Assembly: GCF_020535245.1 (NCBI RefSeq)
Contig: NZ_CP084910.1
Coordinates: 968,501 to 1,032,500 of the forward strand
DNA from: Asticcacaulis sp. AND118
GTDB lineage: Bacteria; Pseudomonadota; Alphaproteobacteria; Caulobacterales; Caulobacteraceae
DNA length: 64,000 nucleotides
Direction: 5' to 3'
Shown here: positions 48,973 through 51,487 of the stretch, one piece after another
How the letters are laid out: each line of letters starts with the position of its first letter
How positions within the stretch are numbered: position 1 is the first letter of the stretch
Made by a program: the position numbers and the translations under genes
Notes under the pieces: generated by a model
What the model saw: the letters and a program-made list of their open reading frames with translations, nothing else
Database searches by the model: none
Told to the model about the DNA's origin: nothing

Positions 48973-49383
48973 ATGCCTGATATTCACCCCGTAGATGTTT
49001 ATGTTGGCGCCATGATCCGTAAGCGCCGGAAAGAATTGGGCCTGTCGCAACAGGGCCTCGCCGAAGCGCTCGGCATCACCTTTCAGCAGGTGCAGAAATA
49101 CGAGAGCGGTTTCAACCGCATCAGCGCTTCGAAACTGTTTCAGACTTCGCGAACCTTGAAGGTGCCGATTACCTATTTCTATGAAGGCAAGCCGGAGGTC
49201 GGCGTCGAAGCCGCCAGCCCTTCCGAACAGACAGTGACGGCCTTTGCCATCTCGGCCGAGGGCATCGAACTGGCGCAATATTACCCAAAACTGTCGAAAA
49301 TCAGCCGCCGCAGTATCAATGCCGTGGTCCGGGCGATGCTGCACGATCAGGACGCGCGAAGCGGCGCTGACGCTCAAGACTGA
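48973..49383 (+). CDS. XRE-family transcriptional regulator
   Basis: The 136-residue protein has an N-terminal Cro/C1-type HTH: residues 8-65, V-G-A-M-I-R-K-R-R-K-E-L-G-L-S-Q-Q-G-L-A, then Q-V-Q-K-Y-E-S-G-F-N-R-I-S. The F-Q-Q-V-Q-K-Y-E-x-G form is typical of the alphaproteobacterial single-HTH regulators linked to cell-cycle and morphogenesis control. A short helical tail follows. AAGGAG precedes the ATG. Its last 68 bp overlap the convergent membrane-protein gene. Confidence 0.88.
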   Translation: MPDIHPVDVYVGAMIRKRRKELGLSQQGLAEALGITFQQVQKYESGFNRISASKLFQTSRTLKVPITYFYEGKPEVGVEAASPSEQTVTAFAISAEGIELAQYYPKLSKISRRSINAVVRAMLHDQDARSGADAQD

Positions 49384-49789
49384 TCATGCCGGCCATCAGG
49401 GCGAAGACCAGGGCATAGCCGCCCCAGAAGCTGTTGGCGGTTATGTAGACGAACAGGCTGAGGTCCTGGCTCAACAGCGAGGCGAAGTGCCCCAGCACGG
49501 CCAGCAGCATGAAGGCGGTGATGAAGGCCGTCCAGAATCGGCGCGACCACAGAGAAAGGATGAAAAAGCCGATCAGGGTCAGGGTATCGACGGTGGCGAT
49601 GCCGGGGTCGAAGCCCGGTCGCGGCGTTTGCACGATCGGCGACAGAATCCAGGTGAACCAGATGAGAAGGGCGCCGTAGCGTTCCGGCCATTGGCCGCGC
49701 CACAGCGCCCATATCCCTACGGTGACGGCCAGCACCGTCGATGTCTTCATCCAGATAAAACTGACGAGGCGTAGCGTTTCGGGGTCCAT
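49316..49789 (-). CDS. Small multi-span membrane protein (unknown)
   Basis: The 157-residue product has four membrane helices (about 15-28, 38-55, 62-82 and 85-130), with conserved-looking W-T-W-I-L-S-P and P-G-F-D-P-G loops. The C-terminal tail is basic (R-Q-R-R-F-A-R-P) and lies over the XRE gene's 3' end. I do not recognise a family. Codon use in the membrane part fits a real gene; the last 20 codons could be less constrained. Confidence 0.65.
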   Translation of the reverse strand: MDPETLRLVSFIWMKTSTVLAVTVGIWALWRGQWPERYGALLIWFTWILSPIVQTPRPGFDPGIATVDTLTLIGFFILSLWSRRFWTAFITAFMLLAVLGHFASLLSQDLSLFVYITANSFWGGYALVFALMAGMISLERQRRFARPDRAASPGPRH

Positions 49790-49800
49790 GCTCCCTTATA

Positions 49801-50175
49801 TCAACCGGCCTGACGGATGTCATGGGCTGCCGTGATCGGCACCACATCGGCGTGGCCCTTCTGAGGGGGAGTTTCAGGGAACTTCTCGGTTTCTCCGCCG
49901 CCGGCGGTGGTGGCGTAGCCCATCTTGGCCGAGATGTCGAAGAGGCCGCCGTGGGCGCGAACGATGGTTTTGCGAGCCGTCTGAAGCCCTTTGAGCGTTT
50001 CGACCAGATCGTCCATCACCTCGACGCCTTCGACCATCGAGATGCGGGCGTCCATGCGGGCCTGCGCCAAGCTGCTGGTCAGGTTGGCCACCGATATGAC
50101 GGCGCGTTCGATCTGGGCCTCGGCGTCATGCAGGCACAGGGTTTGGGTGCGGATAATCTCAGCTCGCTTTTTCAT
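49801..50175 (-). CDS. Small helical protein of unknown function
   Basis: The 124-residue product is hydrophilic and helical: coiled-coil-like residues 10-85, A-Q-I-E-R-A-V-I-S-V-A, A-R-M-D-A-R-I-S-M-V, L-V-E-T-L-K-G-L-Q-T-A-R-K. A flexible Pro/Gly-rich tail ends it. No signal or membrane segment is visible. It lies between the small membrane protein and the LuxR-type gene, on the same strand as both. Function unknown. Confidence 0.6.
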   Translation of the reverse strand: MKKRAEIIRTQTLCLHDAEAQIERAVISVANLTSSLAQARMDARISMVEGVEVMDDLVETLKGLQTARKTIVRAHGGLFDISAKMGYATTAGGGETEKFPETPPQKGHADVVPITAAHDIRQAG

Positions 50176-50243
50176 TTGGTCGTCGCTCCGTAGTCATTGC
50201 CGCTAGAGTCATGGCCGCAAGTGGCCGCCCCGCCGGCCGGCGG

Positions 50244-51092
50244 TCATACGGCGCGACGAAAGATCTGTTCCATGGCCTCCAGCGTCCCCAGAAGCAGGAA
50301 CAGGAAGCCGCCGAAAATGAATGCCGCCGTCAGCGCGATCAGGAGGATGACCCCGATCCAGGCCAGCGGTCCCGACGCCTTCAGCCGGGTTTTAAATCGT
50401 TGCCACCCTCCGAGGTCAGCCAGGCCGTCGCCGAGACCACGGTCAGGGCCGAATGCTCCGCCCCGAATTTCAGCGCCATGGCCCGCACGCTGTCCACCGT
50501 ATCCGTAACTTCCGGGAACTTCGCCGGATGGGACAGCGTATTCCACGCCGATTCCAGATCCCGCCATTCCATGCTCAGATACTCGCCCGGTTCCTGTGGC
50601 GCTGCTTCGAGCAGACAGGAGGTGAGGGCCATCACCAGGGTCGTCAGCGCCTGCGGTTCCGCCGTTTTGGCCAGCGTCCGGACCATTGTCAGAAGTCCCG
50701 GAAGGAGGTGCCTGTATTCCGGATCGGCTAGGGTCGCCCAGGCTGTCTCCAGCTCTTTCCAGGTCATGATCAGCTTGTCGCTGTTGAGGAGATGCGTATT
50801 CATGAACCCAGCTTGCCGCATCCGCCCGGGGTGTGGGTATAGCCCTTGGTGGGGGTCCCCCTTCGGGGGGGAGGCCGATCTCCGCCTCATAGGCTGTAAG
50901 GAGAAGCGCGGCGTCGCGGCTGCTGGCGACGCCGAGGCGGCGGCGCGCCTCTTCGGTATGCGTCTTGACCGTATGTTCGCTGATTTTCAGCAGGCGCGCG
51001 ATCTCCTTGCCGCGCTGATGTCTGGCGATGAGGCGCAGGATTTCCTTCTGCCGCTCGGAAAGCAAAACAATCTTGTCGTCGGTCACGCTCAC
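50244..51092 (-). CDS. LuxR-type HTH regulator with C-terminal membrane segment
   Basis: The open frame of 282 residues starts with a LuxR-type helix-turn-helix (about 10-70, S-E-R-Q-K-E-I-L-R-L-I-A, then K-E-I-A-R-L-L-K-I-S-E-H-T-V-K-T-H). It ends with a membrane helix (P-L-A-W-I-G-V-I-L-L-I-A-L-T-A-A-F-I-F). Both ends show normal GC-rich codon use. The middle, about residues 78-225, is Gly/Pro/Ser-rich and is overlaid by a better-looking reading frame at 50381-50803. HTH-linker-membrane proteins of this plan occur in Alphaproteobacteria. The central part of this translation may not be the natural product. Confidence 0.6.
   Translation of the reverse strand: MSVTDDKIVLLSERQKEILRLIARHQRGKEIARLLKISEHTVKTHTEEARRRLGVASSRDAALLLTAYEAEIGLPPEGGPPPRAIPTPRADAASWVHEYASPQQRQADHDLERAGDSLGDPSRSGIQAPPSGTSDNGPDAGQNGGTAGADDPGDGPHLLSARSSATGTGRVSEHGMAGSGIGVEYAVPSGEVPGSYGYGGQRAGHGAEIRGGAFGPDRGLGDGLADLGGWQRFKTRLKASGPLAWIGVILLIALTAAFIFGGFLFLLLGTLEAMEQIFRRAV
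50381..50803 (-). CDS. Nested out-of-frame coding region with internal duplication
   Basis: This 140-codon frame lies wholly inside the LuxR-type gene, on the same strand and in another frame. Residues 13-65 and 78-131 are repeats: M-T-W-K-E-L-E-T-A-W-A-T-L and M-E-W-R-D-L-E-S-A-W-N-T-L. Matching codons differ mostly at third positions (GAG/GAA, GCC/GCG, ACC/ACG, CTA/CTG), which shows protein-level selection in this frame. ATG 50803 has no strong ribosome site. The frame ends at TGA beside a T-TTA-AAA slip site that leads into the membrane-helix frame. Confidence 0.55.
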   Translation of the reverse strand: MNTHLLNSDKLIMTWKELETAWATLADPEYRHLLPGLLTMVRTLAKTAEPQALTTLVMALTSCLLEAAPQEPGEYLSMEWRDLESAWNTLSHPAKFPEVTDTVDSVRAMALKFGAEHSALTVVSATAWLTSEGGNDLKPG

Positions 51093-51240
51093 GCTGAACT
51101 CCCTGCCTTCTGCCCGACTGAGGAGGTTAACGGGAATTTACCAAACCTACAACTTTTCGCCGCGTTTCCGCCGAAAACGCACGGGTTTTGTGCGTCTTGC
51201 AGGCGATTTCGTTTGCACGGCACATCGAATGCTTATGACG

Positions 51241-51487
51241 CAAGGCGTATAGTGAAAGCGCCGCACATGGTCGTTGATCCAGATCCACCTGCAACGGTCT
51301 AAACGCGGCCCGAAGGCCCTGGTCTCTCTACGGGGCCTTCGTGCTTTCCGGACCCTCCCCACATCGCGCGCTTACACACTTCGGGCTATGGTCCGGGCAT
51401 CGCACGAAGCTGTGGGTCATCCCCCCACCTGTCCAACAGCCTTCGCGATATCAAAGGCCCCGGGCAGAGAGACCGGGGCCTTTTCAT
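51241..51487 (+). ncRNA. Candidate structured RNA with terminator
   Basis: The 510-bp gap between the LuxR-type gene and the 83-residue gene has no convincing gene. It does contain stem-forming segments. GAAGGCCC at 51312 pairs with GGGCCTTC at 51333. CCGGACC near 51348 can pair with GGTCCGG near 51402. A terminator-like hairpin closes the region at 51453-51483. A small RNA or leader that ends there is plausible, but I do not recognise a family. Confidence 0.35.
51453..51487 (+). terminator. Intrinsic terminator of the intergenic transcript
   Basis: An 11-bp perfect stem AAAGGCCCCGG with its complement (51453-51463, 51473-51483) and a 9-nt loop is followed by T-rich bases. It ends whatever is transcribed from the intergenic region before 51603. 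Confidence 0.75.

Follow-up and report, generated by a model that had tools for sequence, protein, structure and literature searches.

A likely overprinted gene pair in Caulobacteraceae: a small protein encoded out of frame within the disordered linker of a LuxR-type membrane regulator

Two real genes very likely share a single locus in the genome of Asticcacaulis sp. AND118: a regulator gene, F0, and a shorter gene, ORF2, which is nested within it in the +1 frame and would be started separately, the two forming a conserved overprinted pair. The locus lies in what we refer to as the window, i.e. the whole 64,000-nt stretch of DNA that was analysed. ORF2 (positions 50381..50803 of the window, minus strand) falls entirely within the coding sequence of F0 (50244..51092, minus strand) and is read in a different frame, such that the two genes constitute a nested, out-of-frame pair.

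Results

F0 runs as one uninterrupted frame of 282 codons from a GTG start at position 51092, and its predicted layout is a LuxR-type HTH domain, followed by a disordered linker and then by a C-terminal membrane helix. The HTH domain (F0 residues 11-64; 50901..51062, minus strand) matches the GerE/LuxR family of Pfam (PF00196) with 49.7 bits against a curated cut-off of 23.5, which makes F0 a clear member of that family. Sigma70_r4_2 is just over its threshold too (26.0 against 25.7); the Pfam matches to F0 with E values up to 1 comprise five HTH-type families and one weak match at the C-terminus, and all 25 of the NCBIfam families listed scored under their cut-offs. About 10 residues lie between the start and the HTH domain, and neither an autoinducer-binding domain nor a receiver domain was found at the N-terminus with Pfam or NCBIfam; we rejected the reading of F0 as a quorum-sensing LuxR protein or a NarL-type response regulator for want of such a domain. 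In the AlphaFold prediction for the window's F0, made together with ten relatives, the HTH domain is ordered, and residues 83-224 (50421..50846, minus strand), the Gly/Pro/Ser/Arg-rich linker that carries ORF2, have pLDDT values that are nearly all below 50. Residues 242-281 (50250..50369, minus strand) form a hydrophobic C-terminal helix in the AlphaFold model that is predicted to span the membrane. The first-pass annotation of this DNA had read both ends of the 282-codon frame, an HTH and a membrane helix, as coding and the middle as filler, and both the Pfam score and the low linker pLDDT bear this out. Thus, F0 shares its HTH domain with the GerE/LuxR regulators but differs from them in the long, disordered linker that leads to its C-terminal membrane helix, and in lacking any receiver or autoinducer domain that we could find. 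Of 25 genomes in the genus, including the one that the window comes from, 24 have a match to F0 with E ≤ 0.001, and several of these matches are to the HTH part only. The source genome of the window (4.05 Mb, four contigs) also has a shorter HTH-membrane paralogue, on its second contig (L002; G000:C2:887471-888031). Upstream of the host gene, at 51310-51480, two GC-rich palindromic stretches are visible by eye.

ORF2 starts with ATG and encodes 140 aa arranged as two copies of a three-helix domain, at 50600..50767 and 50405..50572 (both minus strand), which match the family profile with E values of 4.5e-18 and 4.4e-20, respectively; these two matches are not independent of the profile, since both halves of the window's ORF2 are among its 50 rows. 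Within the window's genome, the ORF2 profile has two matches, both at the window locus. In an ungapped register with an offset of 65 residues, the two repeats share 27% identity over 56 residues; they differ at 31, 24 and 37 first, second and third codon positions, and 7 of their 15 identical residues use different codons. The initial description of this region, as an out-of-frame ORF encoding two repeats whose matching codons differ mainly at third positions, survives in part: the frame is open and both halves match the family profile, but the third-position bias is weak, because third-position differences only slightly outnumber those at first positions. A one-domain relative of ORF2, modelled by AlphaFold (with 12 other sequences), has a pLDDT of 84.9 and helices at residues 16-26, 29-49 and 51-66, and on this model the ORF2 product looks like a folded protein of three helices. 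We found neither a known family nor a convincing fold relative for ORF2. The best Pfam matches were TetR_C_21 (0.0024; weak, 13 of 50 members) and DUF2917 (0.0044), neither of which is meaningful; the best value was 0.027 in NCBIfam, searched with the 25 rows of profile A1 and the whole window ORF2, and 0.042 in PHROGs, searched with the 25 rows of A1. The window's ORF2 had no match in phage records, nor could a relative be confirmed among viral contigs. Two genera show peculiarities of their own. In genus g20 (L163-L176), ORF2 is longer, at about 110 aa, and an N-terminal stretch similar to ALRLRREIDDFEARWP recurs; several copies follow strong Shine-Dalgarno sites. In genus g13 (L084-L093 and L106-L128), many ORF2 genes terminate in Met-Thr-stop, and these ends overlap a motif (such as D-L-T-P) that recurs in the host frame just 5' of the membrane helix.

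Our survey of relatives used the window's ORF2 as a query, profile A1, which consists of 25 ORF2 domains, and a broader profile, A3. The window's ORF2 matched 19 of the 25 genomes of the genus (its own included), mostly at F0 loci; three of the 25 gave no ORF2 match, and genome G006 was matched solely at a standalone copy (L100). Among 390 genomes of the family, A1 matched 67 and A3 matched 235, the latter in 10 of 22 genera. At the order level, A3 matched 52 of 398 genomes, 50 of them Caulobacteraceae, and at the class level it matched two of 385, both inside the family. For a first round of loci, we required an ORF2 match and an upstream HTH on the same strand, and kept the best such pair for each locus, whether nested or not. 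In 128 of 128 such loci, duplicates included, ORF2 lies +1 inside an open HTH frame. Setting aside 31 duplicate sequences left 97 distinct loci, among which 34 representatives have less than 70% ORF2 identity to each other; in all 97, hydropathy reaches at least 1.6 within the last 70 residues of F0. A second sample, of 31 rows, was chosen for further genera and includes the window; in 26 of these rows, ORF2 is nested +1 in a continuous HTH-to-membrane frame, and every one of the 10 ORF2-bearing genera has at least one nested locus. This recurrence of the +1 arrangement favours a true overprinted gene, which was among the readings offered at first pass. The comparison of orthologues agrees: the ORF2 frame is conserved, +1 in a continuous host frame, and the HTH domain and ORF2 share one frame only in L199.

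The few departures from this geometry take several forms. In L198, L199 and L212, the frame breaks between the HTH and the linker, and the linker-to-helix frame is open with ORF2 +1 to it; these breaks reflect either a real change or an assembly error. No HTH is present in the available stretch for L204 and L213, and ORF2 occurs without an HTH in L100 and L103 (the latter being the same place as L043). The arrangement is also found on plasmids: ORF2 is nested +1 on NZ_AP018829.1 of A. excentricus M6 (locus L021), and the HTH and ORF2 matches on a plasmid of Asticcacaulis sp. DW145 are +1 to each other (18710, 18978).

We estimated omega by simple counts, with no model, in 19 independent close pairs that use 38 of the 97 loci. 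For ORF2 in the overlap, omega is approximately 0.13, with 213 synonymous and 68 nonsynonymous changes in single-change codons, and ORF2 differences across the same pairs number 86, 54 and 236 at first, second and third codon positions. For F0, omega is approximately 0.05 in the HTH domain and approximately 0.22 past the ORF2 stop, in the membrane helix. In the overlap, F0 has an omega of approximately 3.8 and the third frame one of 2.3; the F0 value is inflated, since silent sites of F0 are second positions of ORF2. By these counts, the ORF2 frame is under purifying selection at the protein level, and selection switches frame along the DNA, from the host in the HTH domain, to ORF2 in the middle, and back to the host in the membrane helix. 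The sequence comparison thereby confirms that the out-of-frame ORF is more than a chance occurrence, and represents a conserved protein family under purifying selection.

A different constraint is seen in the host frame. A T at the third position of an ORF2 codon creates a stop codon in F0 if the next ORF2 codon starts with AA, AG or GA. Among the 34 representatives, T occurs at 0 of 483 of these forbidden places (its use with the same amino acids elsewhere predicts 78.0) and at 244 of 1626 free third positions; across all 97 loci, it occurs at 0 of 1305 forbidden places, against 185.5 expected. When ORF2 was reshuffled synonymously, using a codon usage that is itself depleted, F0 remained open with a probability of 0.03-0.38 per locus, for a product of approximately 1e-28; kinship among the loci means that this product and the expected counts overstate independence, but the contrast is still large. 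F0 has a stop in the overlap in none of the 97 loci, whereas the third frame has one in all 97. Openness alone is not rare in the DNA of the overlap, because two antisense frames are often open (stop-free in 58 and 54 of the 97 loci), and hence it is the comparison between frames that is telling. We found no residue-level constraint on F0 across the overlap, whether by omega or by hydropathy, the latter being that of the reshuffled sequences (mean z 0.25). Selection on the host frame through the overlap is thus apparent for the absence of stops and not for the identity of residues, suggesting that the F0 linker is kept open rather than kept the same.

It might be argued that ORF2 is the sole gene in the middle of the locus, and that codon usage by itself accounts for the open host frame. 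The lack of residue-level constraint on F0 would fit with this, as would a hydropathy that ORF2 alone predicts and the frequent openness of some antisense frames. We nonetheless consider this explanation improbable: T is missing from precisely those third positions at which it would stop F0 while occurring at others, the flanking HTH domain and membrane helix are conserved in the host frame, and the frame equivalent to F0 is interrupted by stops in two of the standalone ORF2 copies, L100 and L204 (in two others, L103 and L213, it has none over ORF2).

Another explanation, slightly less probable again, is that programmed frameshifting or phase variation generates a single fused HTH-repeat-membrane protein, with the host linker not normally translated through. 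Two slip sites had been put forward in support of such a fusion, a C7 run (50865..50871, minus strand) and a TTTAAAA heptamer (50390..50396, minus strand). Both are present and suitably placed in the window; in addition, C or G runs of at least 5 lie between the HTH and ORF2 in many representatives, and the relative L199 reads the HTH and ORF2 in one frame. The sites are not conserved in relatives, however, and we judge them to be incidental. Of the 34 representatives, one, the window's own locus, has a slip-like heptamer within its last seven ORF2 codons, and three have at least 7 consecutive C between the HTH and the ORF2 core; no slippery site is conserved at the frame junctions of these representatives, the upstream C/G runs varying in length and place. 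Moreover, the host frame is free of stops in all 97 loci even though its residues drift, a property that would be needless in a frame that is skipped. Lastly, there are +1-frame stops only a few codons upstream of the ORF2 ATG in four relatives (3 codons in L045 and L048, 4 in L015 and 6 in L007), such that a shift occurring farther upstream could not reach ORF2 in these loci. The idea of frameshifting or phase variation was therefore abandoned.

ORF2 seems to have its own start, which would be served by a ribosome-binding site in some genera and perhaps by a leaderless mRNA in Asticcacaulis. For the 34 representatives, the mean Shine-Dalgarno energy is -4.6 kcal/mol at the best ORF2 ATG, -3.0 for the linker background and -5.5 at the best host start, and outside Asticcacaulis the best candidate ORF2 start has an energy of -6.9 kcal/mol or lower in 16 of 24 loci that we chose from three genera; these values are the best among several candidate starts per locus, and the limit of -6.9 was fixed after the energies of the 34 representatives had been seen. 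In Asticcacaulis, where we assigned the ORF2 ATGs ourselves, in most loci by a constant distance to the conserved core, the majority of energies at ORF2 starts are weak, L014 (-8.4) being among the exceptions, and the base right after the assigned ATG is A in 25 of 25 loci. The ORF2 ATG overlaps a host-frame His codon (CAT), and in the window a later in-frame ATG, at ORF2 residue 13, could yield a shorter product.

We ranked the conservation of 75 upstream columns (-75 to -1) in 18 of the 25 Asticcacaulis loci, correcting for codon position in F0. A-11 (16 of 18 loci) and T-7 (13 of 18) ranked highest, although columns -36, -37 and -33 nearly match them, perhaps owing to F0 residues. We take A-11 and T-7 to be the key bases of a -10 element, if transcription begins at the ORF2 ATG. 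In the window, they mark a candidate -10 element, CAAGCT (50810..50815, minus strand), on the assumption that the first base of a leaderless mRNA is that of the ATG. T-12 of the -10 element is not conserved in Asticcacaulis, and an E. coli-type promoter scan of 50200-51400 found no promoter. The starts of the host gene and of the downstream gene DsA in the same loci lack A-11/T-7 and are enriched for G between -8 and -14. The A-11/T-7 pattern hints that ORF2 in Asticcacaulis is expressed from a leaderless internal transcript. In Caulobacter crescentus, 375 leaderless mRNAs have been described, and 75.4% of coding genes have no Shine-Dalgarno site (PMC4117421), figures that make either route to ORF2 translation plausible. 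The counterpart for ORF2 is the A-11/T-7 pattern, a feature of the sequence.

More remote still is the possibility that ORF2 goes unexpressed, as a relic, or is conserved for other reasons, as an RNA element. Some upstream nucleotides are conserved as well, but the differences between ORF2 copies are concentrated at third codon positions, the predicted protein folds with good confidence, and candidate ribosome-binding sites precede ORF2 in other genera. The suggestion that two assembly errors split one true frame can be dismissed almost entirely, frame breaks in L198, L199 and L212 notwithstanding, given that the identical +1 geometry recurs in 97 distinct loci from many assemblies, and also on the A. 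excentricus M6 and Asticcacaulis sp. DW145 plasmids.

Two further genes lie downstream of the overprinted pair on the same strand. DsA (49801..50175, minus strand) encodes 124 aa, with no family match of weight in Pfam or NCBIfam; DsB (49316..49789, minus strand) encodes 157 aa, likewise belongs to no known family, is hydrophobic, and is probably a multi-pass membrane protein. Of the 97 distinct nested loci, 89 have DsA downstream in the same orientation and 94 have DsB, with both present in 86, DsB alone in eight and DsA alone in three. Five short-linker host paralogues have no ORF2 (L018, L019, L024, L028 and L031); DsB is nearby in all five, and DsA in one. We infer from this distribution that the core consists of the tethered HTH protein and DsB, with ORF2 and DsA as common additions, and that together they may form a membrane-linked regulatory module. 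Separately, we note a plus-strand gene of the XRE-like HTH type (48973-49383) that runs into the 3' end of DsB; in A. excentricus M6 and L105, too, the cluster has HTH regulator genes nearby.

Discussion

We propose that F0 would produce a membrane-tethered one-component regulator, with a LuxR-type HTH domain, a flexible linker and a C-terminal membrane helix, and that ORF2, in the +1 frame within the linker, would use a start codon of its own to produce a small, soluble protein with three helices. Selection would act on the amino acids of ORF2 and, in the F0 linker, only on the absence of stops; a stop-free linker would keep the HTH domain and the membrane helix on one polypeptide, and the composition of that linker would be a by-product of ORF2. 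The nested geometry, the two constraints, the start region and the three-gene neighbourhood are features of the sequences themselves, and we infer that both frames are translated, with ORF2 expressed separately, and that a single membrane-linked regulatory module unites the action of ORF2 with that of the regulator, DsA and DsB. A fuller account, which we put forward tentatively and regard as rather unlikely to be right in every part, is that ORF2 was born by overprinting within the linker, has been nested since the common ancestor of the genera, regulates its host or the module, and in Asticcacaulis is leaderless, being transcribed from a host-internal promoter at its ATG.

The Rz/Rz1 genes of phage lambda provide one point of comparison, since a small gene is nested +1 in another and both are functional, encoding lysis proteins. 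ORF2 shares the +1 nesting, but Rz/Rz1 is a phage lysis pair, and the window's ORF2 has no match in phage records. Nested genes are a known kind in bacteria also: the comS gene of Bacillus subtilis lies out of frame, on the same strand, inside the larger srfA gene (PMC12350097), and thus resembles ORF2 in being nested within a larger coding gene on the same strand. The function of the host is different, however; srfA serves surfactin synthesis, whereas F0 would be a one-component regulator, with ORF2 filling its disordered linker. Similarly, the alternative-frame genes olg1 and olg2 of Pseudomonas aeruginosa have been reported to be translated and under purifying selection (PMC12350097), but these are single long overlapping genes of 957 and 1728 nt, whereas ORF2 is a compact family nested in 10 genera. 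The F0/ORF2 pair stands apart in its conservation across the family, in a host frame of which, within the disordered linker, only the openness appears to be maintained, and in the possibility of an internal start without a leader. We found no earlier report of the F0/ORF2 overprinted pair in the literature that we searched.

Nested genes in bacteria have been deemed rare anomalies, and many annotation tools discard them (PMC12350097). Indeed, in the PLSDB gene table, which is incomplete, the Asticcacaulis sp. DW145 plasmid has ORF2 (WP_338736634.1) and not the host frame, and the A. excentricus M6 plasmid has the host frame (WP_126424278.1) and not ORF2. These two plasmids in an incomplete table point to an annotation blind spot, with the small protein listed for one and the regulator for the other. 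Across the family, the locus amounts to a natural experiment with many sequences, such that dual coding becomes testable and not just arguable. It also suggests a simple route to overprinting, in which the host would yield the residue identity of its linker and retain only an open frame.
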